From: Lachnospiraceae bacterium | Lineage (GTDB): Bacteria; Bacillota; Clostridia; Lachnospirales; Lachnospiraceae | Reading direction: 5' to 3' | Assembly (NCBI GenBank): GCA_024403455.1 | Contig: JAKSRR010000003.1 | Span: 81,599 to 145,598, forward strand | Length of the DNA stretch: 64,000 nt | Part shown: one piece after another, positions 8,118-57,766 of the stretch | Layout: each line of letters begins with the position of its first letter | Position numbering within the stretch: position 1 is the stretch's first letter | Position numbers and translations under genes: made by a program | Notes under the pieces: generated by a model | The model's input: the letters and a program-made list of their open reading frames with translations, nothing else | The model's database searches: none | Told to the model about the DNA's origin: nothing

Positions 8118-8128
8118 ACATTTCCCTC

Positions 8129-39496: not shown

Positions 39497-39832
39497 ATGT
39501 ACATGGTTGACGCTACAGAATTAAAAACGAATTTCAAAAGATACGCTGGAATAGCTTCTTCTGGAGATGCTGTCCTTATTAAGCGTCCTAAAAAAGAGTC
39601 TAATTTGATCCTTATAAACGAAAGTTCTTATAATCAATGGCAGCGTATTATGGCATATTTAATGAAATTACAGGGATTTACGTCATTAGAAGAAGTTCTG
39701 AAACAGGAAGAAACCAAAACATACTATAGTGAAGACTTTATAAATGCATTTGGTAGTCTTGATGAAGATGACTTAGTTCGTCCTCCACAGCTAGGCTTTG
39801 AATACGACTGCAAAAGAGAGGAGCTTTTGTAA
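39497..39832 (+). CDS. Antitoxin, Phd/YefM-like
   Basis: 111 residues. MYMVDATELKTNFKRYAGIA then SSGDAVLIKRPKKESNLILI is the Phd/YefM fold: a short strand, a helix, and R-P-K-x-x-x-x-x-L-I. The C-terminal 40 residues (YYSEDFINAFGSLDEDDLVR) are acidic and would wrap the toxin. AGAGG precedes the ATG. Its stop TAA is directly followed by the toxin ATG. It should bind the direct repeats in the promoter as autorepressor. Confidence 0.85.
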   Translation: MYMVDATELKTNFKRYAGIASSGDAVLIKRPKKESNLILINESSYNQWQRIMAYLMKLQGFTSLEEVLKQEETKTYYSEDFINAFGSLDEDDLVRPPQLGFEYDCKREELL

Positions 39833-40231
39833 ATGTACTATTTAGATACAAACATCTGTGTTTATTATCTGAATGGACGTTATGATTCTGTTCGGAAAAA
39901 GATCCTGCAAACCATCCCCAAAATTATCCGCATCCCAGCCATTGTGAAAGCCGAATTATTGGCTGGGGCTTTTAGAAGTCAATACAGGGAAAAAACCTTA
40001 GAAATGATGAACACATTCTTAAAGCCATACGACGTTGAAAGTTTCACAGATGAAGCCGTTTATGCGTATGCTGAGATTCATGCTTACTTAACAAACAAAG
40101 GATGCCTGATAGGTCCCAACGATATGTTTATCGCCGCTACCGTTCTTGCTAATAAAGGAACGTTGGTCACCAATAACATAAAGGAGTTTTCAAGAATTCC
40201 AGGGTTATCGTTAGAAAACTGGACAGAATAA
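39833..40231 (+). CDS. PIN-domain ribonuclease toxin, VapC-like
   Basis: 132 residues. MYYLDTNICVYYLNGRYDSV has the first Asp, IVKAELLAGA the Glu, GPNDMFIAATVLANKGTLVT the later Asp residues and TNNIKEFSRI the final T-x-N/D step, so the acidic active site is complete. Such toxins cut tRNA, rRNA or mRNA. A Phd-type antitoxin with a PIN toxin is a frequent mixed pairing. Start codon directly abuts the antitoxin stop, so translation is coupled. Confidence 0.93.
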   Translation: MYYLDTNICVYYLNGRYDSVRKKILQTIPKIIRIPAIVKAELLAGAFRSQYREKTLEMMNTFLKPYDVESFTDEAVYAYAEIHAYLTNKGCLIGPNDMFIAATVLANKGTLVTNNIKEFSRIPGLSLENWTE

Positions 40232-40551: not shown

Positions 40552-43500
40552 TTATGGAGTAGGCGAATATTCCACAGATAATGCACCACCACTTGTTCCT
40601 GCCGGAAGTACAAAGGAATACTTTGTTGTATCATCTACATCCTGCGTAATCGTAACGGTTAGTGCTGTATCGCCTAACTTTATTCCATTTGGTGTATTTC
40701 CTGCCGGCATTACAAAGACAATGGTGTGATCCTCCGTAGTAGCGCTGCTTCCTCTGTTTCCGCCAAAGACATACTTTCCTTCTGACGTATCTTCCCAACG
40801 ATAAACATCGGTTACATCTGCTGCGTCAAAAGTGACTGTCGTATAATAGCGCAGATGGTATGTCGTCATATCAATTGTATGATTATTTCCTACCAGCCAT
40901 TCGATTCCAGTTACACCAAGATTTTCAGAAGACAGGGTGCCTTCGTAACTGTAGTTGCGAATGGTAAATCTACCTGCTACTTCAATTTTTCCAAACAAAC
41001 CACCTACAGTAGTCGCCCAGGTAGAAGCATCTCCCATCGACTGAATATTGACCTTAACTGCCTTGTAGTCTGCTGTATTCTCTGTAGCATTGTCTACCGT
41101 TCCATTGATGTAGCTATCTACCTCACTGTTTAAATAACCAATGAGACCACCAACCTGCGACAGATTTCTTCCCTGAATGGTTCCTTCCGCAGTCATGTTA
41201 AAGAATTCTCTAACCATCTGCCCTGCGCAATTACCAATGCAGCCGCCAACGCTCGTTAAGTTTCCATTCGCTGCTGTAATACTTCCACTACTGTATACAT
41301 TTTTCACCTTTAGTACGCAATTTCCATTCGCCTGACCAATGATACCACCCGCAGATGTTAAATTATAATCTGACGCAATATTGCCTGTATTCTTCACGTC
41401 ACGCATCGTAAGCGGGTTCGACTGCGCCAGACCCACCATACCACCAATATTGGAGGCATCACTCGTGCTCTGCAGCCAGATCGTTCCTTCGTTTTCGCTG
41501 TTCGCAATGGTAAGTATCGATGTTTTTCCACCCTTTCCAAGCAAACCACCAATATCATTAGCCGTATTGCTTGTAACATGAATCATTGCATGGTTATATA
41601 CCTGGTCCATGGAAAATACAAGATTCACATCATCTGCAAACTGCCCAACAACGCCACCGCATTGTTTCATTCCCTTTGCGATTACAGCGCCATTATTATG
41701 AACAATATTTAATGTATACTGTCCTTTGGAAGCATACCCTACTATGCCGGCGCCATATTGCAAATCTCCTTTCGCTTCTATCGTTCCTTCATTGGTGACG
41801 TTCGTCAGCGTTCCATCTTGCTGCGTTCGTCCAACAATACCTGCAATATATTTGTTATGATTATTACTATTGCTAGCATCAAAGGTTGCCCACTCTGTAG
41901 TCAACGTAATATTGCCTTGGTTTGTAACCTTCTGCAAAGTAGCAGCTCCAGCGACATTGCCAACAACACCGGCAATAAATTGTCCTCTTCCAACCGTAAT
42001 AGTTCCGCTTAACGCATTATTACTATCTGTTATCGTCAGAGTTCCACTACAGTTACCACAAAGTCCTGCGATATATAAATCTGTGTTACTTGCTCCTGCA
42101 ATGGAGATTGCACCACTATTTGAACTATTATAAATCTCCACATTCCCTGTACAATTTCCGCAAAGTCCTGCAATCTGCTTTACTGAATTGCTAGTACTAT
42201 TATTCAAAATAACACCACCATTGCTACCAGCTGTAACAGAAAGTCCTATTTTTACCTCTCCAAAAAGACCGCCTACACACTGAAACGCTCCGTACCCGCT
42301 CATCCATATGTTAGCTGTGTTATCGCCACTTACCAGACTCACAGCCTTTTCCGACTGACCAACGAGGCCACCCACATACTTCATATCAGTCTGCGCTTCA
42401 ATCACATTGTTCGTTCTTCCATTGTAGCTATGCTTCTCATCATAGGTATTATGAACATTCTCCATGGCAAGAGGCGCAGTGGAATGTCCTACAATACCAC
42501 CCGCATATTGCAATGATACATAATTTTTCATACCTATCTCACCATAGGTAGTTACATCCTTTATAGATGTTGGTGCAAGCAAGATTTCACCAACAATTCC
42601 TGCAACTCTGGTGGAACTACCTGCGGCATAGATAGAAGCCTCATTCACAACCCCTTCCATATTTACGATATGTGCTTCATCCACGCCATTGATTCTGCCT
42701 GCAATGCCACCAACACGATCCAAAATACCGCCCGTAGTCTTAATATCAGGTGCATCCAGCCCCGCGACCTTAATATTTGCCACATTCGTAAGTGTTACAG
42801 AACCCTTGGTTTCACCCACAATACCCGCTACGTAGTTGCAGTTTCCAGCAGTCTCTATCTTTCCATAATTTGTGATGCTAGTTAAGGTCAGGTTACCATT
42901 AGCTACCTGCCCCACAATACCAGCCGCATGATCCAGCACTCCATTCGACGAAATCTTTCCGTAGTTATTATAAATGTTCATGGCAACATCGCCTGCATTT
43001 ACCAGACCAACTACCCCACCTACATATGTACACTTCTCCCACGTGGTAGAAATAATATTACCCGCATTGGAACCAACACTCAATGAAAGTCCCTTCATCG
43101 CACTTCCAGCAATACCACCAACATACTGCATGGTTCCAGTTGTCTGGATGTCACCTGTATTGAATAATCCATCTCCCGTGAAAATGCCTTCTCCGCTACC
43201 ATCTTTCTTTCCAACGCAGCCTACAACACCACCTAAATACAGCGCATCACCGTTACCCTCTATTTTTCCTGCGTTCCATACATTTACAAAAGATGCATCC
43301 CTATATATTTGTCCGGCGACACCGCCTACATGATTCAGCATAGTTCCCGAGCCACCCCAGTTATCTCTATGTAAATAACAGGTGCTGGTCGTATCCTTGA
43401 AGGATGCATTTCCATCAACGTAACCTACAATACCAGCGCAGTGATCCATCACTCCCTTACACTCGATTTTAGGCTCACTTGCAGTAACTCCCGCATTCAA

Positions 43501-46500
43501 CAAGTTCGTTCCATAATGCACATCCGTAAAGTATCCGTTCTGCCGCACATAACCAATGATTCCTCCAACACATTTCAGCATTCCTTGGTTTTCCATAATG
43601 ATATCTTTACTACTACTTACCTGATTTATGTCCGCAGAAAGTAGTACATAGCCTGCAACACCACCAATATATGCAGACTTGACCGTCACTGCTCCCACAA
43701 ACCTGATTTCACTTTCACTTATCGACTTCTTGCACGTAAAGTTACCACCTACATACCCTGCAACACCACCGATGTATTCCGTAAATTTGGCTGCCTGCTT
43801 AACTTTGATTTCACAATTACTTGTGATATTTTCGCAGATAAAATCCTTGACAACATATCCAGCCACTCCACCAACACAGCGAACAACTCTATCCGACGCA
43901 TTACCATCAAAATAAATAGATGCTCTATTCGTTACATCTGTACATGTCGTTTTTCCGTCGGCATGGCCAATTAATCCACCGATTCCAAGTTCAGGATTAT
44001 TTTCGCCAGTTTTGGTCACATACAATGTTTTAAAGCTCATCTCTTTTCCCAGATTCGCTACATTCGTAAGATTAACAAAACTCTTACCATATCCTAAGAC
44101 ACCGCCTACACAGTTAGCAGGTAATGTTTCACCCCAATTCTTAAACAAATCAATATCCGCAAAATTTTTAGCATTTTCTATAGTTATTCCACTTTTTGCA
44201 TAGCCAACAAGGCCACCTAAATATTGAACTCTTTGGGGCTTTGATCCGTTTCCTACACCAATAGTAACAAGGTCACCATTATAGCAATTCTTCAGAGTCG
44301 CTCCTAAAGTATTTGTAGTAAAAGTCTTTGTTGCAGGAACATAAGTACCTGCATTACAGATACCGACCAGTCCACCTACATAACCAACGTCGTTGGTTCC
44401 GTTAGCCCCAAAGTTAGCTTTACTTACATCCACATCCGAAAAAGTACATGTGATCGTTGGCTGCTCCATGGTAGATGTTCCCTTAATGAGTCCTCCCCAT
44501 TGTTCCTCATATTTCACATGCTCCACAACGCTGATTGTTCCATCCGCTGCAAGTGTACCACCATTGACGCAGTCTTCCATCTTGGAACCGTTAAATACCC
44601 CTACGATACCTCCCACAGACTCTCTTGCGCTGACACTGGCATAGTTTTCACACTTTGTCATATTTCCTGCGCAACCACCTGCGATACCGCCCACGGTATG
44701 TGCATTATATGCCTTTACTTCCGCATAATTCTTACAATTATCCATATTAGAGAAGGACGCACCAGCGATACCACCTATAAATCGCGCACATATGGTAATC
44801 TTATCCATATGGGAATTATAGGCAACCACAAGTCCCCTATTCTCACAGTTCTGTATAATTGCATTTGCGTTTTTCGATTTAGTTAAACCAACAATACCAC
44901 CTACACCAGCTGTACGATCACCTTTAAATGCATCATTTATATCAATGAATCGCTGCAAAACCAAAGCTTCATTGGAGCAGTTCAGTATACTGTCCCCTGT
45001 AAATCCTGCAATACCACCTCCACGCGCACTATTACGATAGCAGCAAACCATGGGAATAATTAATCGTGAATTATATCTGCTATAACCATCCTGCGCTAAT
45101 AAAGATTTTTGGTTCTCTGCGGTTGTATTTCTATAAACAAGTAAATTCGTTGCCGCAATTTTACCACCATCTTTTACCCTTGTATGACAATTATTGACAA
45201 TACCATCTGCATGCCCAACAATACCTCCTACCTTAGCAGTCGCAACGATAAAACAATTCGTCGTACTGCAACCGTCTAATGCATAATCCTCTGCTGAAGT
45301 TGATGCATAGCTACTATATCCGACAATACCACCTGAAATAGCATCATATGCATAGATGATTCCATCCTCAACATTACAGGAGACTATAGGTTTCGTGGTG
45401 GTACCAGCTATACCGCCAAGATAAGATGGCGTGTAATCTGCCACAGAATCTCCATTCGTTCCCATTTCGCCAACTTTATTATTATCTGCTGGTATTTCAA
45501 CGATATAGTCCAAACATTGACGACCGTCTTCTTTCTTTGTTTCACTCTCACTTTCCAATTCCTGTGCTATCAAAAAGTGAGTGACACTTACATTTGCAAT
45601 AACACCTCTATTCTGTCCACAAACAACTGCACTACGACTCATAGTGAGTAGCACAGCATTAGCAAATTTTAGATTCTGAATGGTTCCCTCATTTTCACGG
45701 AAAAATCCATTACATCTTTCACCCGTTTTTTCACCATTAATATAAATACCTGAAATCGTATGGGGGGCAGCTGCTGTGTCACTTTCAAACACACCCTTAA
45801 AATAGCGCTTCGCAGCAATATTTCCAGTATTCTGCAAATCAACATTACGATCAAAATCCAGTGGAAAGAGTCCTTTTTTCAGATGAATGGTCTTGTTTGT
45901 ATCCGTTTCATTAAAGGCAACATCAGCTACTGACAAGTTCTCTAGGAAGTGAAGGTTACCATTGGAGTTAGCTACATCCGACATAGCGAGCACTTCCGCC
46001 ACTGACTTACCCATGGCATGGGAAACAGCCTGCAAAACAGTATGTTCCTCTCTCTCATACTGGCAGAAATTAATATCATCTGTCACCTGATAGTGCAGAA
46101 ATCTAGCTTCATCTGGGCGATTTAATGCGCCGGAAAGTTGCTGCTTCAAAGCATCCAGACGTGTCATATTCATAACATGACGAACACAGGAAATGCTATA
46201 GATTTCTTTGGCACTGTCATAACCTGCAAACACAGGATTGATTGCATTGGAGTTTGCTGTTAGTCCCGAGGTAGACGAAGACAGACGGCAGTAGAACTCA
46301 CTCTTTTCCGGCGTAGCGCCAAAAACGCCATCCAGCGTTAACTTGCTCATACGATCCTCTTTTTCAGAAGAAAGCAGAATAATACAAAGTGCTTTGTTGT
46401 CGTCTTTCAGTTTATAAAAATATCCCTGCAATGTATCTTTATTCTTAGAACTTGCATCAAGATTTGCCAAAGTATCTACAAGTGAAGAAATAGTACCATT

Positions 46501-47379
46501 GCTATGCTGATTACCACCATTGTTATTCCAATTAACTTTATAGGATTTTGTCTGTTCTCCAATAAGATCAATCGTTAGCTGAGGACCATGTCCATGCTCG
46601 CTACTCGCTAATGTCTCCTCAAACACAAGATATACTCTGTCATCGTTCACAAGCTGCACGCTACTTTCAATGGTCTCCTTGATTTTTTCAGAAACCGCGG
46701 AGGTATCATAAAGGCCATAATATCCCTGATTCTTCTCTTCCAGGCTATCATCATCTCTTAACAGAAGGTTATTTTTCGCAAGCAAATCTCCCGTCTGGTA
46801 GGATGCCAAATTAAAGGCAATGCCCTCTTCCTTACTGTAAAATACGGCCTGTACCACACCGGTGGTCTGGTTATATTCAAAAATAATCTTATTGTCTAAA
46901 TACTCATCATCCACGCCGAGGGAGAACAGCATATTGTATAGGGATGTGGTTCTGTCCTTTGTTCCATCATAAAAGACAGACACTATCTGGGTGCCATCAT
47001 GTTTCTCTTTGTAGGTGGTGTTAAGCTGCAATCCATTCTTTGAAAGAATATTGCCCATATGGGTATCCTGTCTTGCTGCGGCCGCTTCTCGGTAATCAAG
47101 CAGCGTAACAAGGTGCGGTGTTCCCTGGTATGCATCTACAAGATCATTAAACTCCTGCAGCGTTCCATCCTTCTGACGCTGCACGAGATTACTCTGTAAA
47201 CTCATGAAAATGATTTCCGCAGCCGCATTTCGCTCGTTCCTATCAGCATCCTTAATATATTGGCTGATTCCCACTGCACCTAAGCCCAGCATGACTGCAA
47301 TAATTGCCACCACAATAATGACTTCCATCAACGTGAAGCCAAAATTGCGTTTTATGTTTTTAAACATATTTCGTACCAT
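40552..47379 (-). CDS. Giant GLUG-repeat pseudopilin, likely pilus-borne adhesin
   Basis: 2275 residues. The N-terminus (NFGFTLMEVIIVVAIIAVML) is a class-III-type prepilin leader with cleavage expected before F of G|FTLMEV and Glu at mature position 5, then the hydrophobic helix. A long region (about residues 60-650) follows with helices, several acidic loops and no known family. From ~650 to ~2130 about 40 copies of a G-G-(I/V/L)-x-G motif (for example YVGGIAG, HAAGIVGQ, YIAGLCGN) recur every ~30-50 residues with strands between: GLUG-type repeats as in bacterial adhesins, predicted to make a beta-helix-like rod. The last ~140 residues look like a beta domain. GAGGA precedes the ATG. It should be exported and processed by the pilus system. 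Confidence 0.88.
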   Translation of the reverse strand: MVRNMFKNIKRNFGFTLMEVIIVVAIIAVMLGLGAVGISQYIKDADRNERNAAAEIIFMSLQSNLVQRQKDGTLQEFNDLVDAYQGTPHLVTLLDYREAAAARQDTHMGNILSKNGLQLNTTYKEKHDGTQIVSVFYDGTKDRTTSLYNMLFSLGVDDEYLDNKIIFEYNQTTGVVQAVFYSKEEGIAFNLASYQTGDLLAKNNLLLRDDDSLEEKNQGYYGLYDTSAVSEKIKETIESSVQLVNDDRVYLVFEETLASSEHGHGPQLTIDLIGEQTKSYKVNWNNNGGNQHSNGTISSLVDTLANLDASSKNKDTLQGYFYKLKDDNKALCIILLSSEKEDRMSKLTLDGVFGATPEKSEFYCRLSSSTSGLTANSNAINPVFAGYDSAKEIYSISCVRHVMNMTRLDALKQQLSGALNRPDEARFLHYQVTDDINFCQYEREEHTVLQAVSHAMGKSVAEVLAMSDVANSNGNLHFLENLSVADVAFNETDTNKTIHLKKGLFPLDFDRNVDLQNTGNIAAKRYFKGVFESDTAAAPHTISGIYINGEKTGERCNGFFRENEGTIQNLKFANAVLLTMSRSAVVCGQNRGVIANVSVTHFLIAQELESESETKKEDGRQCLDYIVEIPADNNKVGEMGTNGDSVADYTPSYLGGIAGTTTKPIVSCNVEDGIIYAYDAISGGIVGYSSYASTSAEDYALDGCSTTNCFIVATAKVGGIVGHADGIVNNCHTRVKDGGKIAATNLLVYRNTTAENQKSLLAQDGYSRYNSRLIIPMVCCYRNSARGGGIAGFTGDSILNCSNEALVLQRFIDINDAFKGDRTAGVGGIVGLTKSKNANAIIQNCENRGLVVAYNSHMDKITICARFIGGIAGASFSNMDNCKNYAEVKAYNAHTVGGIAGGCAGNMTKCENYASVSARESVGGIVGVFNGSKMEDCVNGGTLAADGTISVVEHVKYEEQWGGLIKGTSTMEQPTITCTFSDVDVSKANFGANGTNDVGYVGGLVGICNAGTYVPATKTFTTNTLGATLKNCYNGDLVTIGVGNGSKPQRVQYLGGLVGYAKSGITIENAKNFADIDLFKNWGETLPANCVGGVLGYGKSFVNLTNVANLGKEMSFKTLYVTKTGENNPELGIGGLIGHADGKTTCTDVTNRASIYFDGNASDRVVRCVGGVAGYVVKDFICENITSNCEIKVKQAAKFTEYIGGVAGYVGGNFTCKKSISESEIRFVGAVTVKSAYIGGVAGYVLLSADINQVSSSKDIIMENQGMLKCVGGIIGYVRQNGYFTDVHYGTNLLNAGVTASEPKIECKGVMDHCAGIVGYVDGNASFKDTTSTCYLHRDNWGGSGTMLNHVGGVAGQIYRDASFVNVWNAGKIEGNGDALYLGGVVGCVGKKDGSGEGIFTGDGLFNTGDIQTTGTMQYVGGIAGSAMKGLSLSVGSNAGNIISTTWEKCTYVGGVVGLVNAGDVAMNIYNNYGKISSNGVLDHAAGIVGQVANGNLTLTSITNYGKIETAGNCNYVAGIVGETKGSVTLTNVANIKVAGLDAPDIKTTGGILDRVGGIAGRINGVDEAHIVNMEGVVNEASIYAAGSSTRVAGIVGEILLAPTSIKDVTTYGEIGMKNYVSLQYAGGIVGHSTAPLAMENVHNTYDEKHSYNGRTNNVIEAQTDMKYVGGLVGQSEKAVSLVSGDNTANIWMSGYGAFQCVGGLFGEVKIGLSVTAGSNGGVILNNSTSNSVKQIAGLCGNCTGNVEIYNSSNSGAISIAGASNTDLYIAGLCGNCSGTLTITDSNNALSGTITVGRGQFIAGVVGNVAGAATLQKVTNQGNITLTTEWATFDASNSNNHNKYIAGIVGRTQQDGTLTNVTNEGTIEAKGDLQYGAGIVGYASKGQYTLNIVHNNGAVIAKGMKQCGGVVGQFADDVNLVFSMDQVYNHAMIHVTSNTANDIGGLLGKGGKTSILTIANSENEGTIWLQSTSDASNIGGMVGLAQSNPLTMRDVKNTGNIASDYNLTSAGGIIGQANGNCVLKVKNVYSSGSITAANGNLTSVGGCIGNCAGQMVREFFNMTAEGTIQGRNLSQVGGLIGYLNSEVDSYINGTVDNATENTADYKAVKVNIQSMGDASTWATTVGGLFGKIEVAGRFTIRNYSYEGTLSSENLGVTGIEWLVGNNHTIDMTTYHLRYYTTVTFDAADVTDVYRWEDTSEGKYVFGGNRGSSATTEDHTIVFVMPAGNTPNGIKLGDTALTVTITQDVDDTTKYSFVLPAGTSGGALSVEYSPTP

Positions 47380-47500: not shown

Positions 47501-47529
47501 ATTATATCGGATAAAATGTCCGATTCCAA
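47501..47529 (-). promoter_or_regulatory. Possible promoter with inverted repeat, upstream of the giant pseudopilin
   Basis: TTGGAA and TATAAT with 17 bases between. The spacer is exactly the inverted repeat TCGGA-CATTTTA-TCCGA. Its half-sites TCGGACA and TATCCGA recur upstream of the minor-pilin operon. The predicted start lies inside the hairpin that follows, so promoter activity is uncertain. Confidence 0.45.
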
Positions 47530-47597: not shown

Positions 47598-47624
47598 TAA
47601 AAAACCGCACCCCGAAGGGTGCGG
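47598..47624 (-). terminator. Terminator of the major pilin gene
   Basis: CCGCACCC-CGAA-GGGTGCGG, a perfect 8-base stem, followed on the minus strand by six T. It lets the pilin be made in excess over the giant pseudopilin. Confidence 0.92.
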
Positions 47625-48235: not shown

Positions 48236-48264
48236 ATTATACAAATATTCCTCTATCTTGGCAA
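48236..48264 (-). promoter_or_regulatory. Promoter of the major pilin gene
   Basis: TTGCCA and TATAAT, 17 bases apart, about 115 bases before the start codon. The leader can form nested pairs (TCAC...GTGA outside, TAAAGT...ACTTTA inside, GGT-AGT-ACC at the tip) and ends in AAGGAGG. No c-di-GMP riboswitch consensus was found in it. Confidence 0.75.
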
Positions 48265-48332: not shown

Positions 48333-50039
48333 TTAATCCAGGAAGTTAATAACCTTACGCATTTCCTCGATGGTTGTTTTACCCTCAAAGATGAGCTGCT
48401 TGGCATTGGTCTGCATATCGGTAAATCCAAATTGCTCTGCCACTTCCTTAATCTTCTGAGAGGAAGCTCTCTCCATAATGAGCTGACGAATCTCATGATT
48501 TACCATGACAATTTCATGCACTGCGGTTCTTCCGCGATAGCCGGTATAGTTGCATCGCTTACAGCCCTTTCCCTTGTAAAGGATGGCGGGCATCTCTCCT
48601 TTTCCCCATAGAGCTCTGTCCTGCGCAGTCGGCAGCACTTCTTCCTTGCAGTCAGGACAGATAGTCTTTACTAATCGCTGGGCTAAGATACCAATCACAG
48701 AGGAAGCTACAACATAAGGCTCCACACCCATGTCGATGAGTCGCATGAAGGTAGATGCCGCATCATTGGTATGAATGGTAGAAAGCACAAGGTGACCGGT
48801 AATAGCCGCCTGGGCTGCGATGGTTGCAGTTTCCTGGTCTCGGATTTCACCCACCATGATAACATCCGGGTCCTGACGCATGATGGAACGAAGTCCTGCA
48901 GCAAAGGTAAGTCCCGCTTTGGTATTAATATGTACCTGGGTAATATTATCCATAACCTTTTCAACAGGGTCTTCAACCGTAACCACATTGACATTGGGGG
49001 CCGCAACTTCATTTAGTGCAGAATAAATGGTAGTAGTCTTACCAGAACCAGTAGGACCGGTAACCAAAATAACACCATTAGGGTTATGAACTAACATATT
49101 CATCTTTTCAAAGTTTGCTTCGTTCATACCAAGCTCTGTCAACGGAACAACATCCACCTTATTATCGCCCAAGATACGAACTACAATCTTTTCTCCATAT
49201 ACCGAGGGAAGGGTCGAAATACGGAAGGATACATTTTTGGCACCCATTTCCATAGAGAATCGTCCATCCTGAGGAATACGGCGTTCGGAAATATCCAATC
49301 CTGATACGATCTTCAGTCGTGTTACCAAAGATAGATGAATGGATGAGTTTAGTACCATGACTTCCATCAGGTCACCATCGATACGGAAGCGTACTACTAC
49401 ATTGTTCTGCTTCGGTTCAATATGTACGTCGGAAGCCCCCATGGAAACTGCCTGGGTAAGAATGGTATTTACTAACTTAACCACGGGTGAAGAATCGACA
49501 CGGTCCATCATCTGCTGATATGATTCGCTACTTAATTCCTCATCCTGGGCCTGGCGCTCATAGATCTTATTGGTTTCATTAACTACGCTGAACATATTAC
49601 GGTTCGCATAGTTCTGTTCAATGGCAATGCGGATGTGCTCACGCTTTGCCAGCTTTGGTACAATTTCCTTACCAATCTGTTCCTGTAAGTCCTTAAAGCC
49701 AAAATAGTTTAGGGGGTTATCCGTTGCAACAAACAGGAAGTTCCCCTCGATATTTAAGGGCACTAAGGAAAGGGCTTCTGCCGTTTCTCTCGGCACGGTT
49801 GCGATTACTTCGGCACTGGAGGTCAGTTTATTCAGAGGCAAAACCTCTACCAGAAGCTGTTTGGCAAGTTCGCCTAACATCTGGTCTTCCGTTACTAACC
49901 CCATCTCAATTAAAATATCACCCAGCATCTTTCGTTCCGGGAGACTCTTCTGATAAGCCAGTGCATGCTCTAACTGTTCATTTGAAATAAAGCCTGCCTG
50001 AATAAGGACTTCACCAAGCCTCAGCTTATTGTTCGTCAT
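48333..50039 (-). CDS. pilB: Type IV pilus assembly ATPase PilB
   Basis: 568 residues from the ATG behind AAGGGGG; an ATG seven codons earlier lies in the overlap with the preceding gene. N-terminal MshE/GSPII-E-N-type domain (LRLGEVLIQAGFISNEQLEH), then ATPase: GPTGSGKTTTIYSALNEV Walker A, the Asp box, DPDVIMVGEIRDQETAT Walker B and HLVLSTIHTNDAAS His box. Four Cys in CPDCKEE and CKRCNY bind Zn2+. Drives pilus extension. Last gene of the assembly operon before the pilin. Confidence 0.95.
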   Translation of the reverse strand: MTNNKLRLGEVLIQAGFISNEQLEHALAYQKSLPERKMLGDILIEMGLVTEDQMLGELAKQLLVEVLPLNKLTSSAEVIATVPRETAEALSLVPLNIEGNFLFVATDNPLNYFGFKDLQEQIGKEIVPKLAKREHIRIAIEQNYANRNMFSVVNETNKIYERQAQDEELSSESYQQMMDRVDSSPVVKLVNTILTQAVSMGASDVHIEPKQNNVVVRFRIDGDLMEVMVLNSSIHLSLVTRLKIVSGLDISERRIPQDGRFSMEMGAKNVSFRISTLPSVYGEKIVVRILGDNKVDVVPLTELGMNEANFEKMNMLVHNPNGVILVTGPTGSGKTTTIYSALNEVAAPNVNVVTVEDPVEKVMDNITQVHINTKAGLTFAAGLRSIMRQDPDVIMVGEIRDQETATIAAQAAITGHLVLSTIHTNDAASTFMRLIDMGVEPYVVASSVIGILAQRLVKTICPDCKEEVLPTAQDRALWGKGEMPAILYKGKGCKRCNYTGYRGRTAVHEIVMVNHEIRQLIMERASSQKIKEVAEQFGFTDMQTNAKQLIFEGKTTIEEMRKVINFLD

Positions 50040-50691
50040 TTTGTTTTCCCCCTTCTTCAAATGGCAGTATGCCGTAGATTCTAAAGGTCATGGAAAGATT
50101 TCCATAAATGGTATTTTGCTCTTCTTCATCATAATCTCTAAAGAAGTTCTTAGAAATAGCACAGGAGGTAATCTCGATGGTCTTACTTTCTCCATTTAAT
50201 GCATCGATCAGTGCTAACATGTCATCATATTTTCCGGTAGCAGCTAGGGAAACATCACAGGCTAAAAGAAGATCCTTCTCATTATCCTCATCATCCTCTG
50301 CTTCCTCCTCTTCTCCCTTTTCAATAATGACATCAAAAGCCTTATCGCTAATCGTACTAAAGGTTCCAATAGAAAGTGATGTAATATCCAGATGGTTATC
50401 AGCAACCAGCTTATTAACAAAGCCGTCCATGGTATAACTGTTCCAGATACCATTAAAGAAAATATTAATTTTCTCAATTCGTTCCAGCGAATCCTGCTTT
50501 TCTTCAAAAACATTCATGTTAAGAAGGGAATTATTCATGTCTTCCAGCGTCTGCTCATCCGTAGCTTTGGTTGCCACCAGTTCCTTGTGCTCTTTCATCT
50601 TCGGAAGAAGCAGATATACGAACAGGAGTCCGATTACCAAAACACCCAATAACATCTGCAGTAATATTTTTTCTCTTTTTGTAATATTCAT
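50026..50691 (-). CDS. PilO-like inner-membrane protein
   Basis: 221 residues. A short cytoplasmic start and one membrane helix (LQMLLGVLVIGLLFVYLLL) are followed by a coiled coil (KEHKELVATKATDEQTLEDM) and a C-terminal domain with strands and an acidic loop (EKGEEEEAEDDEDNEKD). Topology and gene order after PilM-N match PilO. It would form the alignment ring that links PilM/N to the pilus base. Its end overlaps the pilB start by 14 bases. Confidence 0.8.
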   Translation of the reverse strand: MNITKREKILLQMLLGVLVIGLLFVYLLLPKMKEHKELVATKATDEQTLEDMNNSLLNMNVFEEKQDSLERIEKINIFFNGIWNSYTMDGFVNKLVADNHLDITSLSIGTFSTISDKAFDVIIEKGEEEEAEDDEDNEKDLLLACDVSLAATGKYDDMLALIDALNGESKTIEITSCAISKNFFRDYDEEEQNTIYGNLSMTFRIYGILPFEEGGKQNDEQ

Positions 50692-50703: not shown

Positions 50704-52239
50704 TTACTTCGCAATGGTAAGCGCCAGAGCAAAATTATACACATCCTGGCCATCTATGCCTGTACCTGCGCTGAATCCGCCATAAGCCACATTCGAGAAC
50801 GCAGGGAGCGCCGACAAAACCTCTGTATAATGCGCAGGCAGGTACTTGTCCTCTGCGCTACAGCTGATGGTGATAACATTATTATTCAGTGTGTAGGAAT
50901 TAATCGTAATACCTGCTGGTAATGCATCATCAATCGCTCTGATATAGTCGCTTTCAAAACGGCTCTCACCAGTGAGTTTCTGGATATAAGCTTCCCCTCG
51001 ATCCGCATATCGTCTTGCCTGATCAGCCACAATCGTTTCTTTTTCCACAGAGTAGTATGCGTACAAAAGGTTAGGATCATTGATCGTCATTTCCAGTTCT
51101 TCAATCTCCGCCGATAGGTCTGCATTCTTTTTCTTTTGGAACTGAAATGCCACGATTAGCAAAAATGCAATAAACAGGATAATCACAATAGGAAGCATCT
51201 TCAGATTATGATGTTTTCCTTCTTTAATCTTCAAAAACTCATCGAAGAAGTGGTACTGCCCCACCTTATTTTCCATATTAAGGGCAAGACCAATACTGGT
51301 AATATCCTTCTGCAATCTTCCCGCTCTGACACTGGTAAACCCAGAAATACTACTGGTGGGATTAAAAGGAATCGCTTGAATACCAGTTCCTAAAGATATT
51401 CGATCACATAGCGTCTGCACATCCTTGTAGTTACCATATACGGTGATGCTCTTAATCGGAAGATCCGGATGACGCTGGGAGTGGAATCTGGAAAGACGCG
51501 TAATATTCTCAATGGTCTTATTGATTACGTTCTCATCCTTATCAAAACCAAGATCAATCTTGGTTGCTGCAGACAGGACAAACATGCTTTCTTCTAACGC
51601 ATCCCCCTGCTCAATCAGTTCATGACGATAATAGGGTTCCTCATTTTTTCCACAGTACAGGAAGTTTACTTCATCATTGTTAATGCAGGCTAGGATAGAA
51701 ATATCCTGGCTGCGAAGCAAGCCGCAGCGATCTGCCAATAGCTCCATACAATGAGAATATATATCAATTCCCAAAGGCTCTAGTCCGGCTTTTTTCAAAA
51801 CATCATGATAGTTTGCAATGAGTGCTTTCGGGCAAAGAACTGCACGAACCTTTACAAATCCTTCTTTCAAAGGATCTTCCCCTAACACGATATAATCATA
51901 GATATAGTTCGCATTCAGTTTTCTGCGCTTCTGCAGTTCCTGCTGCACCATGCCATCTAGCACCTTTTCCTTTGCCTTTGGTAAGGACAGCTGTTCGGTC
52001 ATACAATCCGTTGGTGTAACCGCCACAACAACTTTCTTATCTTTAATTTTTGCTTCTTTGAGGGTTGCAACAATAAGATCAGACACACGTAAGTCGTTAT
52101 TAACGAGCATACCTGCAACATAAGAATTCTGCGGCATATTCACCGTAATTGCCTGTAATACTTTTGTTTCTCTGCCCTTCGTCTCTAACTGATAGACCTG
52201 CATCAAATCAGAGCTAAAATCCATACTTAGAAATCGCAT
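50704..52239 (-). CDS. PilM-PilN fusion
   Basis: 511 residues. The first ~330 residues have an actin-like (PilM/FtsA-type) fold: MRFLSMDFSSDLMQVYQL with the first phosphate-type loop, KVVVAVTPTDCMTEQL, ALCPKALIANY-like second half, and GIDIYSHCMELLADRCG. At about residues 347-367 a membrane helix (MLPIVIILFIAFLLIVAFQF) begins a PilN-like part: coiled coil and a ~120-residue domain (PAGITINSYTLNNNVITISC). In most systems these are separate proteins; the joined form resembles GspL. It should hold PilO and contact the PilB/PilC motor. Confidence 0.82.
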   Translation of the reverse strand: MRFLSMDFSSDLMQVYQLETKGRETKVLQAITVNMPQNSYVAGMLVNNDLRVSDLIVATLKEAKIKDKKVVVAVTPTDCMTEQLSLPKAKEKVLDGMVQQELQKRRKLNANYIYDYIVLGEDPLKEGFVKVRAVLCPKALIANYHDVLKKAGLEPLGIDIYSHCMELLADRCGLLRSQDISILACINNDEVNFLYCGKNEEPYYRHELIEQGDALEESMFVLSAATKIDLGFDKDENVINKTIENITRLSRFHSQRHPDLPIKSITVYGNYKDVQTLCDRISLGTGIQAIPFNPTSSISGFTSVRAGRLQKDITSIGLALNMENKVGQYHFFDEFLKIKEGKHHNLKMLPIVIILFIAFLLIVAFQFQKKKNADLSAEIEELEMTINDPNLLYAYYSVEKETIVADQARRYADRGEAYIQKLTGESRFESDYIRAIDDALPAGITINSYTLNNNVITISCSAEDKYLPAHYTEVLSALPAFSNVAYGGFSAGTGIDGQDVYNFALALTIAK

Positions 52240-52250: not shown

Positions 52251-53438
52251 TTATCTATACATTCCATAAAGTGGAATTAAAATACTAGCCATAACGAGTG
52301 CCACGATGACACCAATGGTAACTAACATTGCCGGCTCCATAATAGCCAGAAGTTTCTCCGTTGCATTGTCCGCTTCCTGCTCATAATAGTCAGCAAGCTT
52401 CTGATACATTTCGTCGGAGTTACCTGTGGACTCTCCCGTTGCAATCATGGACCATACCATATCTTCAAAAAGCTGCTCCGATTCCATGGAGTCAGAAAGC
52501 GCTCTTCCTTTTTCTACCTCTTCGCGGCAGGTCATTAGTTTGCCTCGCTGGAAGGTATTGGTTAAGGTCTGTCCACAGATCTCCAGTGCGTTCAAAATGA
52601 CAATACCACTGCTGGTGAGAATATACATGGTGCTGGAGAATCTGGAAATAACACTTTTCTCAAGTAATTTACTAAATACCGGAATATTACATTTTAATTT
52701 ATCTACTGCATAACGGCCGGCTTTGTTCTTTACAATCACCTGCCAGATCATAAGAAGCACTAAGATTCCAATCAGGATATACAACCACTTTGTCGTTAGG
52801 AAGGTACTCACACCCATAAAGAACCTGGTAATTCCTGGAATTTCTTTTCCCTCAAACATCTGGAAGAATTTAGGCATAACGAAGGTAAACAGCAAAATGA
52901 CAACACCTACCGTTACAAGCATCAGCATCACCGGATAAATCATGGCAGAAGTCACTCTGGACTTTGTCTTGTACCCTTTTTCATAGTAGACCGCCATTTT
53001 TGCGATTACATATTCCATAGAACCAGACTGCTCACCAATACGGAACATTTCAATCAGCATAGGTGGGAAAACATTTCCCAGTTTCTTCATGGTATCTGCA
53101 ACGGTATTACCCTTTTCCACAGACTCAATCAGATACATATAAACACGCTTCTTCTGCGGTTTCTTCTCTCTGGCGCTGATTTTCTGAAATACTTCGATAA
53201 CCGGGATACCGGCACTCATCATAATGGAAAACTCACGGCAGAATACAGACAATTCCTTCATCTTAAAACGATAAGGAATGTTCACATTATCTATGTTTCC
53301 CTTTTCTACGTAGCTGATACAAATCATGTTACGATTTTCCAGCATACGATAAAAGGTTGCTTCGTCCACCGCCTGGATAACATCCGTCACGATTTTACCA
53401 GTCTTATTGTCTCTGGCTTTAAATTTGTACTCGGGCAT
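52251..53438 (-). CDS. pilC: Type IV pilus platform protein PilC
   Basis: 395 residues, usual for PilC/GspF. Two repeated cytoplasmic domains of helices (FCREFSIMMSAGIPVIEVFQ, later FSSTMYILTSSGIVILNALE) and three membrane segments, the last (LVTIGVIVALVMASILIPLYG) at the end. It sits in the inner membrane and is turned by PilB to add pilin. 11 bases before the PilM-N start. Confidence 0.95.
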   Translation of the reverse strand: MPEYKFKARDNKTGKIVTDVIQAVDEATFYRMLENRNMICISYVEKGNIDNVNIPYRFKMKELSVFCREFSIMMSAGIPVIEVFQKISAREKKPQKKRVYMYLIESVEKGNTVADTMKKLGNVFPPMLIEMFRIGEQSGSMEYVIAKMAVYYEKGYKTKSRVTSAMIYPVMLMLVTVGVVILLFTFVMPKFFQMFEGKEIPGITRFFMGVSTFLTTKWLYILIGILVLLMIWQVIVKNKAGRYAVDKLKCNIPVFSKLLEKSVISRFSSTMYILTSSGIVILNALEICGQTLTNTFQRGKLMTCREEVEKGRALSDSMESEQLFEDMVWSMIATGESTGNSDEMYQKLADYYEQEADNATEKLLAIMEPAMLVTIGVIVALVMASILIPLYGMYR

Positions 53439-53476: not shown

Positions 53477-54022
53477 CTACTGCATATAGATTGTGAGTGG
53501 CTTTTCTGATACCGTTACCCTCACATCATTTTCATCAAAAATCTGCACGTTAGCAAAAAATGCTCCCTGATTGTCTTTATAAATGGTAATCTGTGCTGAA
53601 AAACCATCATAAAATCCTTTATCTAAGACCGTATCATAGATCAGTGGTTGACCTTTCACCGAAAGATACTGGGTCGCCTCTGGGATACTCATACTCTTAT
53701 AGGTAAGCTCAGTATCTAACTCCACAGGAAATGTACGCATATACTCACCGCTGTTGTATTTTAACCGTCTGTCATTCACATCATCGGAGAACTGGTGATT
53801 CCAGCTCTTGGCAAACTCTGCGGACAAACCGTTTTCAATGATGGTTGCCATTTCTAATGCTTTATTCATACGCTTCATTTCTACGTAATTGTTCATAATC
53901 GTTGGAACAGTCATAGCCATAACCGTAAAAAAAATACTGACCATCGCTACGGTAACGATCATCTCCAACATTGTAAAACCGGCATTATTCTTTTTTCCCT
54001 TATGTACTCTTTTAGCGCTCAA
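53477..54022 (-). CDS. Minor pseudopilin
   Basis: 181 residues. KKNNAGFTMLEMIVTVAMVS is a standard prepilin site (G|FTMLEM) with Glu5. The start is TTG, overlapping the previous gene by 11 bases; no good ribosome site at proper distance, so coupling is likely. The soluble domain (LDTELTYKSMSIPEATQYLS) has the general minor-pilin form. Likely part of the priming tip complex. Confidence 0.85.
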   Translation of the reverse strand: MSAKRVHKGKKNNAGFTMLEMIVTVAMVSIFFTVMAMTVPTIMNNYVEMKRMNKALEMATIIENGLSAEFAKSWNHQFSDDVNDRRLKYNSGEYMRTFPVELDTELTYKSMSIPEATQYLSVKGQPLIYDTVLDKGFYDGFSAQITIYKDNQGAFFANVQIFDENDVRVTVSEKPLTIYMQ

Positions 54023-54365
54023 TGTATTTTACAAAAGCTCCCTGATGAATCATGGTCATCTGCATCTGTCCGTTCGTTCCGCCCACACCATTTGCGGGTG
54101 TAATCGTATAGTTCACCGCACAATCCGTTACAGAATCAAAGGTTCCAATAGCAGCCAAATCTGCTTTTTTATGCGCCGCATTCACCATCTTCATATCCTC
54201 AGATAATTTTTCTCTAGCTTCATAATTATCAATCGTAATTTGGTTGGATGCTGAAAAACTGGTAGTCACAAAACTAATGGTAATAGCAAAAAAAGCCAAA
54301 CTAATGACTACTTCCATTAAAGTTTCCCCAGTATTTTGTTTTAACACTTTCCAATAGTTTTTCAT
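54012..54365 (-). CDS. Minor pseudopilin with unusual cleavage site
   Basis: 117 residues. The leader reads KQNTGETLMEVVISLAFFAI: G|ETLMEV with Glu in place of Phe at mature position 1, Glu5 kept. The soluble part is short (DSVTDCAVNYTITPANGVGG). It lies one base after the stop of the next pilin-like gene. Position in the operon supports a minor pseudopilin of the GspI/PilV type. Confidence 0.8.
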   Translation of the reverse strand: MKNYWKVLKQNTGETLMEVVISLAFFAITISFVTTSFSASNQITIDNYEAREKLSEDMKMVNAAHKKADLAAIGTFDSVTDCAVNYTITPANGVGGTNGQMQMTMIHQGAFVKYIER

Positions 54366-54366: not shown

Positions 54367-54801
54367 CTATTCCTTCGCCATAATGTCCTTCACATAATAC
54401 AAACGCAGGGACGAACCACTTTTATATACAGCATTTACCGTATATGTTTTTCCTTCAAAGGCAACCACATAATCCGCAGTATAGTCTGCATATCCCTTTA
54501 CCGTTACTGGTCCACCTTCAAATCCCGTGAATTTCACTTCGCTTCGATTTTCAAAGATTCTAGCCTGATACAAGCGGGAACTCGTATCTAATAATTCATT
54601 ATTAATCTGCTGGAAGACAGAACTCACATATACCGTTGCCTGATCTGTGATAGTTTCCTCTACCAGCCCCGTCGTGGACGCTCTGGCTGCCATCAGCATA
54701 TTGGTACAGAGCACAATAAGAAGCGCAAAAACTGCGATGATAATGAGAAGCGATGCTCCCCTATTATTATTCACCTGTTTCAGTCGCTGTCGTAGCTTCA
54801 T
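54367..54801 (-). CDS. PilX-like minor pseudopilin
   Basis: 144 residues. NNNRGASLLIIIAVFALLIV replaces the usual FT-xxE with G|ASLL and no Glu5, the pattern of PilX/GspK-type tip pilins. The soluble part has strands and ends YYVKDIMAKE. First gene of the assembly operon, 93 bases after the cyclase stop. Confidence 0.78.
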   Translation of the reverse strand: MKLRQRLKQVNNNRGASLLIIIAVFALLIVLCTNMLMAARASTTGLVEETITDQATVYVSSVFQQINNELLDTSSRLYQARIFENRSEVKFTGFEGGPVTVKGYADYTADYVVAFEGKTYTVNAVYKSGSSLRLYYVKDIMAKE

Positions 54802-54894: not shown

Positions 54895-57723
54895 CTACTT
54901 TTTCGTAAACCGGAACACATTATGCTCCGTATCACCATCCGCAATCTTCTGCTGCAATGTCGCAATATAAAGCTCCAGGGCTGGGTCGTTTTCCGAAGCA
55001 TCCTTCACCTTTTCAAAGTAAGCCATGGATTCTTCCATCTGTCCTAAGTGGAACAGACGAACGGCTTCCCTAAAATCTTTACTAGTCTTTAATCGCTCCG
55101 TCTTTCTGGTTTCATCGAGACAGTCTAAGACTTCATATAATGCCTTCACTTCATTGACACCAGCAACCTGTACCATACCAAGATAACGCATGTTCATGCT
55201 GTCTGGATCAGACATACGATCCAAGGTATCCTTGGAAATCAGCATGGCCGTATTGTAGGTCTTAGTAAGTGATTCCAGTCTAGAGCTGATATTTACGGTA
55301 TTGGAAATAACAGTTCCACTGAGTCTTTCATCTTCACCGACAATACCAACACGAGCCATACCAGAGTGAATACCAATACCAATATTGATAGAGCTAACAC
55401 CCATTTCCTTAGCAGTTTCTGGATTCAATACAACCTCATGATACAGCTCAATACCCGCTTCCACTGCATCATCTGCGTTCTCAAAAAGTGCCATCACTGC
55501 ATCGCCAATATACTTATCAACGAAACCATTATGTTTTCGGATAATCGGACCGGCTTTACCATAAATAACATTCACGAACTCAAAGTTTTCCTTTGCCGTC
55601 ATCATCTCAGAGTTCAGTGAGAATGCACGAATATCGCAGAACAGAACCGTTAGATCTGCACTCTCTGCATCACCTAGGGCAAGATCTGTGAAATTCTCCT
55701 TATGTAGCAATTCACGGAATTTTTCTGGAACAAACTTATAATAGAATTTCTCGTTCTTATCCTTTTGAGCAAAATATTCATCCAGACGGCTAGCCATATC
55801 ATTTACACCCTTACAGATGGCACCAACCTCATCTGTTGACTTATAGTCAACACGCGCCGAAAAATCTCCCTTTGCGATTTTCGAAACTGCCACGCTGGCT
55901 TTCTTTAATGCCCTCGCATTCATGATGGACACAAAAATGAGTGCAATAATCAAAATCGGAACACAGATAATCATGGGACGCATGGTCTCAATCAGCATCT
56001 GACGTATCTTTTCATTAACAAAGGTACAATCGAAAGATAACTCAAATAACGCAACAGCATCTCCTGCTTCATTGTATAAGAAGGTATCTGCAACCATAAA
56101 TTCCGCTACATTGGAATACGCTTTTGTAATAAGCGTTCCGGTAACCTCATCATATACACCATCACGTTCCACAAACTCCCCATATTCATCAGTCTGCAAA
56201 TACGTTCCCATAAAGGGTTGTGCAAAATATGCACTGCCTGCCAGAAGAGTGTATGCTTTCTCCGTATTGCACAAATATATGCCTGCTTCTAAAAATCCAC
56301 TCCAAGAGCGGTTATTATATCCAACTAATTTCTGCAGTTGGTGATACAGTAGTTCTGCACTTCCATCTTCCGCGCAGGCGTTCGTCCGCATTTGTTCGAT
56401 CATCTCCACATCCAACTGCATCTCTGCCAGTTCAGATACGGCAAACATTTCTTTTTGTATTTCCTCCATGTAGTTTTCCTTAACATTTTTGTTAATCAGC
56501 AAAAACATTATGACTACACAGACCCCAACAACAGGCAAATTCAGCAATAACTGTTTTGAAATAATGCCTAATCTCCAGCGCATTAAACAGCCAATCGCAA
56601 GTGCTAAACCTAAGCACAGAAATACAAGTGCCGGAATCCACAGATATAGTGATGCCCACTCAACAATGGTGTAGGAAAATGGAAGGGCATACCCATTTTC
56701 CATCGGAATGATTTCCTCTTCCGTAGCAAGGAGTACCGTATCACAGGCTAAAATCGCCATCATGCCATTACGAAGAGTATAGGCTCCTGTAAATAAAAAC
56801 TCATAATATACATAGTTTTCATCAAAACCACATTCTTCAATCGCTTCGCCATAGAAATCATCAATGGTTAAATAGTCGAGACATTCACCATCTTCTATGT
56901 ACTTCACCTCTCCCATATGAATACCAGAAGGTACCACAACACCATCCCCATATAAAACTGCACTGTATGGGATAAATCCATCTGGATTTTCATAGAGATC
57001 GAATGTTTCTTTATAAAGGAATTCGTATTCTCCATTGGCTGTCAATAAACCAATTTCACCATTAGCAAATGTTACACAGTAGTTACCTTTATAGTCCGCT
57101 CTAACATCCACCGCGAATACATCATCTTCCCGCTGGTAAATTGCTCTTACCGTAAGCACACGACTTTTGGGTTCAAGCGCATAAAATACCAAGTTTCCTT
57201 CTTCATTGCGGTAAACAATCTGCAATGCATCGTCATAGTACTGCATAGCACAAATGTAAGCATCTCCGTGGGGTGCATTCATCTCATGCTCAACTTCGAA
57301 ACGTCCTACTTCGCCTACCAGTTGACCTTCCTGGTCAAATTCCATTATGATCTCTCTGGCAGTCCGGTTCGTATTTTCTTCTATCTCCTCCAGAACAACA
57401 TAAAGCTGATCCTCTGGTCCAAATTCTGCAACGGTCAGATATGCCCCAGGATATGCTTTTAGCTGTGAAGCACAAATAACATATTCTAGATTTTCATCTT
57501 CATCAAATACATAAATCCGTTCACCGCAGTCATTGACTGCAAGTCTGCCATCTTCACTGTTTACCACAAACTGGGGATCCATAAAGAATGCGCTTTTAAA
57601 ATCTCCATAATTTCTAGTTGGAGCCAGTTTCCAAAAAACAAACAGCGCAGCCGCAATGCAAAGCAGCATGATTGCAAACCATGGTCGCAACAAGAAAATT
57701 CTTTTGGATGATTTTTTCTCCAT
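54895..57723 (-). CDS. Class III adenylate/guanylate cyclase with large outer sensor
   Basis: 942 residues from an ATG behind GGAG. A membrane helix near the N-terminus is followed by ~330 residues of repeated beta segments (EDGRLAVNDCGERIYVFDED, later ANGEIGLLTANGEYEFLYKE), propeller-like. Two more helices, a second outer region (~420-580), a helix and a HAMP domain (KIAKGDFSARVDYKSTDEVG) lead to the catalytic domain: LTVLFCDIRAFS holds the first metal Asp (~697) and VDKYIGDAVMALF the second plus a Lys typical of adenylate cyclase. A short TPR-like end closes it. cAMP is probable; the signal is unknown. Confidence 0.88.
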   Translation of the reverse strand: MEKKSSKRIFLLRPWFAIMLLCIAAALFVFWKLAPTRNYGDFKSAFFMDPQFVVNSEDGRLAVNDCGERIYVFDEDENLEYVICASQLKAYPGAYLTVAEFGPEDQLYVVLEEIEENTNRTAREIIMEFDQEGQLVGEVGRFEVEHEMNAPHGDAYICAMQYYDDALQIVYRNEEGNLVFYALEPKSRVLTVRAIYQREDDVFAVDVRADYKGNYCVTFANGEIGLLTANGEYEFLYKETFDLYENPDGFIPYSAVLYGDGVVVPSGIHMGEVKYIEDGECLDYLTIDDFYGEAIEECGFDENYVYYEFLFTGAYTLRNGMMAILACDTVLLATEEEIIPMENGYALPFSYTIVEWASLYLWIPALVFLCLGLALAIGCLMRWRLGIISKQLLLNLPVVGVCVVIMFLLINKNVKENYMEEIQKEMFAVSELAEMQLDVEMIEQMRTNACAEDGSAELLYHQLQKLVGYNNRSWSGFLEAGIYLCNTEKAYTLLAGSAYFAQPFMGTYLQTDEYGEFVERDGVYDEVTGTLITKAYSNVAEFMVADTFLYNEAGDAVALFELSFDCTFVNEKIRQMLIETMRPMIICVPILIIALIFVSIMNARALKKASVAVSKIAKGDFSARVDYKSTDEVGAICKGVNDMASRLDEYFAQKDKNEKFYYKFVPEKFRELLHKENFTDLALGDAESADLTVLFCDIRAFSLNSEMMTAKENFEFVNVIYGKAGPIIRKHNGFVDKYIGDAVMALFENADDAVEAGIELYHEVVLNPETAKEMGVSSINIGIGIHSGMARVGIVGEDERLSGTVISNTVNISSRLESLTKTYNTAMLISKDTLDRMSDPDSMNMRYLGMVQVAGVNEVKALYEVLDCLDETRKTERLKTSKDFREAVRLFHLGQMEESMAYFEKVKDASENDPALELYIATLQQKIADGDTEHNVFRFTKK

Positions 57724-57766
57724 GTATTTCTCCAATCTGTGTCTATAAATCCTTCTTACATTTTAA

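Follow-up and report, generated by a model that had tools for sequence, protein, structure and literature searches.

Type IV pilins that carry extra domains, termed modular pilins, have been catalogued in over 1,200 cases and 264 architectures (Raynaud et al. 2021, PMC8179133). The most extreme several-domain example given there has 860 residues, with 12 copies of IPR013211, compared with 2,275 residues for the protein described here and 7,664 for the open frame of one relative; the pairing of a pilin leader with IPR011493 (IPR012902-IPR011493) is already named there, as a predicted M26 peptidase module. The protein in question, P0001, is a giant modular prepilin encoded at positions 40552 to 47379 of a 64,000-nucleotide stretch from a Lachnospiraceae bacterium (contig JAKSRR010000003.1 of GCA_024403455.1, positions 81,599 to 145,598; hereafter the window), next to genes for a type IV pilus (T4P). 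The assembly, here genome G000 with the window on contig C23, comprises 2.23 Mb and is 81.8% complete.

Like PilB and PilC of Streptococcus sanguinis (PMC8179133, PMC10628169; this PilB is a pilin and not the ATPase PilB mentioned below), P0001 belongs to a monoderm T4P system, has a class III leader, carries its extra part C-terminal to the pilin module, has a companion minor pilin without the glutamate at mature position 5 (Glu5), and is proposed to sit at the pilus tip. The extra modules of the S. sanguinis proteins are a vWA or lectin domain, whereas P0001 carries a rod of ~1,750 residues. PilA, the starting subunit of the S. sanguinis pilus, has no Glu5, and neither does the K subunit that caps known HIJK sets (PMC10628169). 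As in GspH/I/J/K, the window locus contains K-like (without Glu5), I-like, and J-like genes, with the giant as the fourth member; the K, I, and J labels come from gene order, Glu5, and weak profile scores, and the H position of the giant is a putative one. ComZ of Thermus thermophilus likewise combines a pilin with a beta-solenoid, binds DNA, and has a proposed tip position (PMC6561018). Its solenoid of ~380 residues is inserted within the pilin fold and acts as a DNA receptor, in contrast to the C-terminal GLUG-type rod of P0001.

P0001 joins a prepilin leader to a long repeat rod

P0001 is encoded by a single open frame, as the initial annotation had recognized; the strand had to be corrected, with the gene lying on the minus strand and a frame scan finding many stops on the plus strand of the same interval. 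The protein is more than 10 times the size of the major pilin of the locus (2,275 versus 157 residues). It starts with a class III leader ending in glycine, MVRNMFKNIKRNFG/FTLMEV, followed by a hydrophobic helix with Glu5 at E19. The leader scored 22.4 bits with the Pfam model N_methyl (cut-off, 21.2) and 20.8 bits with TIGR02532 (cut-off, 16.3), in agreement with the earlier reading of G/FTLMEV as a prepilin leader, and was the only part of P0001 recognized over cut-off by Pfam and NCBIfam in protein scans.

About 40 GLUG-type motifs had been reported between residues ~650 and ~2130. With the pattern [GA]G[ILVMC][VILAMCF][GK], we counted 42 matches between residues 655 and 2126 at a median spacing of 35 residues (41 non-overlapping, the overlapping pair starting at residues 897 and 901), compared with a mean of 0.93 and a maximum of 6 in 2,000 shuffles of the same protein. 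GLUG, which we take to be IPR011493, is only partly captured by its Pfam profile, PF07581: the protein scan found one stretch (residues 1842 to 1867) at 15.4 bits, below the cut-off of 20.5, and the whole-genome search gave 23.3 bits on the giant. At an E value of 0.001 the profile matched 7 of 30 proteins scanned, P0001 being among the 23 misses. At the DNA level the gene contained only two tandem arrays, of 1.9 copies each; the repeats are therefore old and diverged, and an assembly artifact is an unlikely source of the giant.

Structure models placed the parts of P0001 in the order pilin module, Ig-like domain, and beta-helix; together, module 1-225 and the predicted beta-helix give the layout of a modular pilin. 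The repeat rod for which structure prediction had been suggested was thus modeled as a beta-helix, with confidence from residue 1768 to about 2035 and by repeat assignment over the rest. It comes after the pilin head, and no return to the head was seen; the last 115 residues had no confident model, and no relative of this C-terminal tail (2161-2275) was found among the giants compared. Fold statements rest on VIA-align comparison of Foldseek lists (999 and 62 chains), as Foldseek alone gave no match at an E value of 0.001 for either P0001 model. The closest fold was the beta-helix of M26 IgA1 proteases, similar also to 3n6z of Bacteroides ovatus; other beta-helix proteins, including polysaccharide lyases and tailspikes, followed at lower scores. 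P0001 differs from the GLUG beta-helices of the M26 proteases and 3n6z in being pilin mounted, in its longer rod, and in lacking the HExxH zinc motif, which occurred in 1 of 45 giant sequences examined (L082_7). Tapirins of Caldicellulosiruptor (6n2c), which are linked to T4P loci and cellulose, are not pilins and were among the lowest beta-helix scores. The model of residues 1 to 720 gave no pilin-fold match, a result that is uninformative, as the Ig-like domain fills its Foldseek list. With the beta-helix rise of 0.48 nm per turn, the rod would measure ~20 nm if one 35-residue unit forms one turn and ~40 nm if it forms two.

Giant prepilins form a family

The initial annotation had treated a fusion at this scale as little described. 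P0001 is not a one-off. A first scan of genome contigs with the whole protein gave no relative, and phage records gave no match; a whole-protein search of 397 genomes of the family then yielded three matches besides P0001 itself. Two of them, L006 (2,835 residues) and L007 (2,099 residues), are giant prepilins with the N-terminal module of P0001. The third (genome G196, L003/L008) was dropped from the family, its frame having no prepilin leader; this 2,094-residue protein (L008, 6817 to 13101) has GLUG-like repeats followed by many other repeats.

A profile of the pilin module at an E value of 1e-6 matched 150 of 397 family genomes and 92 of 295 genomes of the order, many of these matches covering only the helix common to ordinary pilins. 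We examined 40 stretches that surround long frames, part of them outside the Lachnospiraceae but within the order; of the 42 obtained by adding L006 and L007, 41 contained giant prepilin frames. The total was 44 frames, with L078_2 being a truncated duplicate of L086_0. Of the 41 stretches, 38 also carried a further pilin gene or one for PilB, PilC, or PilM/N; such genes are present as well in L086, with which L078 overlaps. For 43 of the 44 giants, none of 200 shuffles of the protein reached the GLUG-like count of the protein itself; L076_1, kept among the 44, had no GLUG motif. The 7,664-residue open frame begins in L095 and has its far half in L094 (G179:C19), beside pilin, PilT-like, and PilB-like genes. 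G184 carries two giants in tandem (L078 and L086, contig C36; 3,220 and 3,165 residues), whose modules are 89% and whose exposed parts are 69% alike.

With a stricter, helix-free profile of the module (28 rows, 170 positions), 31 of 200 family genomes matched, 25 with a frame of more than 1,000 residues and 6 with frames of 200 to 867 residues; across the phylum, 4 of 398 genomes matched, 3 of them Lachnospiraceae. A scan of named genomes with a one-clade profile confirmed at least 130 stretches, of which at least 78 loci were kept, and 28 of the 34 loci examined (E value of 1e-10 or better) encoded a GLUG giant of at least 1,000 residues. Isolates with such a giant included Diplocloster agilis, Cuneatibacter caecimuris, Eubacterium sp. 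MSJ-21, and Lachnospiraceae bacterium AC2029, the other carriers being mostly metagenome-assembled genomes. The D. agilis loci L074 and L124 were identical over the stretches compared, as were L101 and L126 of C. caecimuris; both species belong to the Lachnospiraceae. All loci examined together gave 72 giants with at least four motifs, or 65 after removal of 7 identical or cut copies (the window's own giant is left out of both counts). Sixty of the 65 were complete, with 1,289 to 4,537 residues and a median of 3,002. The giant is thus not a rare oddity: it belongs to a family present across many Lachnospiraceae and other families of the order.

PF11104 proved unfit for counting T4P genomes, and the frequency of giants among T4P loci is therefore not given: the profile matched 151 of 200 genomes and also Escherichia coli and Bacillus subtilis, often in frames of ~700 residues that look like other proteins of that fold. 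PilM/N homologues were absent from 34 other genomes of the same genus, yet this does not equal absence of T4P, because G004 of that genus has its own locus and giant (L080).

As regards novelty, modular pilins and the pilin-IPR011493 pairing were published in 2021, and the giant family appears to be a new variant of them whose function is predicted from sequence. In the open-licence literature, covered chiefly at the level of titles and abstracts, we found no description of the giant family or of the L071/L072 exchange reported below; the matching passages of PMC3617157 have GLUG and pilin in unrelated sentences, and those of PMC3543383 mention three large minor pilins of a Pelobacter pilus without stating sizes. 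"Little described" therefore stands for the giant scale in the literature found and not for the combination of leader and GLUG itself (PMC8179133).

The giant's gene occupies a probable minor-pilin slot

In most relatives the giant is immediately followed by a pilin of K type without Glu5, and often then by pilins with GTTMIEV-type and GVTLVEM-type leaders. Under a fixed rule, a Glu5-less pilin lay next to the giant in 25 of 38 cases, compared with 20 of 322 other open reading frames (ORFs). In a second set, sharing at least 5 giants with the first, the same rule called 16 of 24 next genes and 16 of 201 other ORFs. The test left out L078 (same locus as L086), end-cut giants, and giants without a downstream gene (L088 and one of L082); the misses in L074, L098, and L101 are genes accepted by a looser rule.

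The slot is also occupied by pilins of ordinary size. In L203, a 198-residue pilin (9252 to 9848) covers module positions 3 to 168 of 170, has no rod, and immediately precedes the genes of K-, I-, and J-like pilins; the 20 kb examined showed neither PilB nor PilC. In L123, a 213-residue pilin (7912 to 8553) is located between PilB and the K, I, and J genes and overlaps the K-like gene; it matches only module positions 1 to 142 and may be a cut gene. These two cases indicate that the module can also stand in this slot as an ordinary minor pilin, and the rod looks as if it had been grafted onto such a module. Taken together, the gene context suggests that of a tip-complex minor pilin.

A proposed pilus-tip protein and its alternatives

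Our preferred reading, to which we assign a probability of roughly 0.6, is that the giant represents an extreme modular type IV pilin, located at the pilus tip and exposing a binding surface on its rod. The ~225-residue pilin module would be inserted into the membrane, processed by a prepilin peptidase, and incorporated into the pilus. The giant would form a tip complex together with the K-, I-, and J-like minor pilins, and the major pilin would polymerize on this complex, as gene context and published HIJK complexes suggest. The Ig-like domain and a right-handed beta-helix of ~1,750 residues would then project from the tip as a rod, the surface of which may bind a target, such as a host or plant polysaccharide, mucus, or another cell. 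A PilT-like ATPase encoded elsewhere in the genome could retract the pilus and pull the cell to the target. Major pilin and giant, with a hairpin between their genes, may be transcribed apart, yielding many major pilins and few giants.

Several observations weigh against this proposal. No full-length prepilin peptidase was found in the 81.8%-complete assembly; the two Peptidase_A24 matches are both short and lie inside a Tad-type locus. (Some relatives have a full prepilin peptidase, named by sequence, inside the locus, e.g., L074, 13862 to 14650.) In the window the giant is not adjacent to the K, I, and J genes, which are located ~6 kb upstream; 13 of 38 and 8 of 24 giants in the two neighbor sets have no adjacent Glu5-less pilin, and the rule appears to have miscalled the matches in L091 and L155. 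L082 and L102 contained no other T4P gene in the stretch examined around the giant. No ligand-binding domain was recognized in P0001, and the model of residues 1 to 720 had a mean predicted local distance difference test score (pLDDT) of only 59.4. Finally, L073 and L095, the two like-ordered relatives scanned, showed no terminator at the corresponding position.

The lack of a full-length peptidase match and the hairpin between giant and pilin gene would also suit an unlikely alternative, in which the leader is a membrane anchor only and the giant stays in the membrane, its rod crossing the cell wall without becoming part of a pilus; at 20 to 40 nm, the rod could span a Gram-positive wall. Such an anchor does not readily account for a pilin head module conserved across the family, with low nonsynonymous divergence (dN) in the three pairs measured, for the Glu5-less minor pilin kept beside the giant in most relatives, or for L203, where a pilin of ordinary size with this module fills the slot. 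We consider it improbable that the beta-helix catches DNA or other cargo at the tip for uptake, as by analogy with ComZ, a DNA-binding beta-solenoid pilin proposed to act there (PMC6561018). The P0001 solenoid has no positive excess (97 K+R versus 115 D+E), although ComZ likewise has no clear positive patches, and a C-terminal rod of ~1,750 residues is unlike the ~380-residue insert of ComZ.

About as improbable is a furlike arrangement, with several rods along the shaft serving cell aggregation: P0001 retains Glu5 as shaft pilins do, and Raynaud et al. allow a shaft position given a flexible linker (PMC8179133), but the bulk of the rod, the putatively separate transcription unit, and the companion K, I, and J pilins, which are tip components in known systems, speak for the tip. 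The nearest fold and the lower-scoring polysaccharide lyases and tailspikes, together with the published term M26 peptidase for the IPR011493 module (PMC8179133), could point to an enzyme, i.e., a pilus-borne IgA1-type protease or polysaccharide lyase built on the beta-helix. Against it stands the near absence of HExxH from the giants; this is the least probable of the readings considered, and an M26 protease identity was rejected for P0001 itself, which lacks the motif. In M26 proteases, moreover, the beta-helix is not the catalytic part. A sortase-anchored protein was also rejected: among 45 sequences, an LPxTG-like string occurred only in L068_9 and a hydrophobic tail only in L089_12.

Lachnospiraceae rank among the most common gut and rumen bacteria, and how they hold to mucus, fiber, or each other is poorly known. 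If the tip reading is true, a family of giant tip proteins in about one-eighth of the sampled Lachnospiraceae genomes (25 of 200, counting the module in frames of more than 1,000 residues) would give a direct answer on attachment, and the concept of T4P cargo would extend beyond an added domain to rods 10 times as large as the pilin. With relatives in so many related bacteria, pilus-tip surface proteins of this kind may be widespread and have been overlooked.

The exposed part diverges faster than the pilin module

In all 18 non-identical pairs with a module identity of at least 55%, the exposed part (best local match) was less conserved than the module, with example identities of 95 versus 54%, 92 versus 88%, and 70 versus 40%; the pairs overlap in members and hence are not independent. 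In L071 (3524 to 16048) and L072 (4061 to 16048), synonymous divergence (dS) was 0.09 to 0.20 in the PilO-like, PilB, and PilT-like genes and 0.14 to 0.37 in the pilin module. It rose abruptly near residue 240, at the module end, to 0.8 to 3.1 or saturation over the rest of the giant (0.57 in one window of the dS scan) and remained high through the K, I, and J genes (1.33, saturated, and 1.02); the gene beyond J had 0.59. In this one pair, the rod and the tip pilins look as if they had been replaced as one block. L074 and L075 showed no dS jump at the module boundary and do not back the idea of a cassette, and in the tandem giants of G184 dS climbed in steps, starting at 0.07 in the leader and reaching 0.68 at the C-terminal end.

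A broader picture, which we offer tentatively and hold somewhat short of even odds, is that of a lineage-specific tip device in many Lachnospiraceae and some neighbors within the order, with a conserved pilin base, a beta-helix rod of ~1,300 to more than 7,000 residues, and K, I, and J partners. Its exposed part would be swapped together with K, I, and J by recombination, fitting one machine with changing tips. If the tip cassette is swapped as a block, commensals would have a counterpart to the adhesin variation of pathogens.

The window locus and its expression signals

Read along the minus strand from 57735 to 40552, the locus consists of a HAMP cyclase, the K-, I-, and J-like pilins, PilC, PilM/N, PilO-like, PilB, the major pilin, and the giant as the last gene (Table 1). 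The T4P locus proposed initially is therefore borne out by the major pilin, PilB, PilC, PilM/N, and three minor pilins, and assembly genes stand beside the giant as expected for a type IV pilin. Glu5 is absent from the K-like pilin, as in 8 aligned relatives, which were chosen as K-like beforehand. L073, whose PilB is 61% identical to that of the window, shares the order PilB, (second ATPase), major pilin, giant.

Table 1. Features of the giant prepilin and its locus (window coordinates)
Feature	Position	Strand	Basis or remark
Giant modular prepilin P0001, 2,275 aa	40552..47379	-	open frame, leader profiles, motif count
Class III leader, residues 1-14, predicted cut G14/F15, Glu5 = E19	47338..47379	-	leader profiles
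Pilin module, residues 15-225, long alpha1 helix 17-71 and small head, common to relatives' giants	46705..47337	-	alignment, model
Ig-like beta-sandwich (predicted), residues 235-384	46228..46677	-	model; several stretches with pLDDT <50
Beta-helix start, residues 399-654, conserved RH..N segment at 400	45418..46185	-	
GLUG-type beta-helix rod, residues 655-2160, 41 non-overlapping motifs ~35 residues apart	40900..45417	-	motif count, model
C-terminal tail, residues 2161-2275, no confident structure	40555..40899	-	model, comparison with giants
Promoter-like site before giant, TTGGAA-17-TATAAT	47501..47529	-	class no commoner than in shuffles
Hairpin like an intrinsic terminator, separating the major pilin and giant genes; 8 pairs, of which 7 G-C, followed by six T	47605..47624	-	hairpin scan
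Major pilin, 157 aa	47649..48122	-	leader profiles
Promoter-like site before major pilin, TTGCCA-17-TATAAT	48236..48264	-	class no commoner than in shuffles
Extension ATPase PilB	48333..50060	-	profile scans
PilO/GspM-like	50026..50691	-	T2SSM 16.8 bits, below cut-off
PilM+PilN fusion	50704..52239	-	PilM_2 and PilN over cut-off
Platform protein PilC	52251..53438	-	profile scans
Minor pilin, J-like (AGFTMLEMIV)	53477..54022	-	J label from order and motif
Minor pilin, I-like (GETLMEVV)	54012..54365	-	I label from order and motif
Minor pilin without Glu5, K-like (RGASLLIIIAV)	54367..54801	-	GspK 15.6 bits, far below 130-bit cut-off
Membrane adenylate/guanylate cyclase (class III) with HAMP, head of locus	54895..57735	-	Pfam scan

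The giant had been placed directly after the major pilin. It is indeed the next gene, with a strong terminator-like hairpin in between. The region scan found 40 promoter-like sites, compared with 48.6 in shuffles, and 20 terminator-like sites, compared with 12.4. The suggestion that P0001 is a tip or pilus-initiating subunit made in small amounts finds support in the gene context of a tip-complex minor pilin, and the hairpin could keep it scarce. As regards scarcity, this support is confined to the window species, because the promoter-like sites are no commoner than in shuffles and neither L073 nor L095 showed the terminator.

The HAMP cyclase at the head of the locus represents a possible cyclic nucleotide link to pilus control. 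On contig C32 the same genome has another set of PilB, PilC, and pilin genes, together with one for a PilT-like ATPase (L119, 4890 to 12823), with no giant within the 20 kb examined. Adjoining the end of the giant gene, positions 39497 to 40231 encode a Phd/YefM-type antitoxin (below the Pfam cut-off) and a PIN-domain toxin. Beside the pilus locus, positions 57767 to 58537 encode a PocR-sensor protein with a chemotaxis signaling domain, and at 6050 to 7340 a DUF3990 protein is followed by a helix-turn-helix protein.

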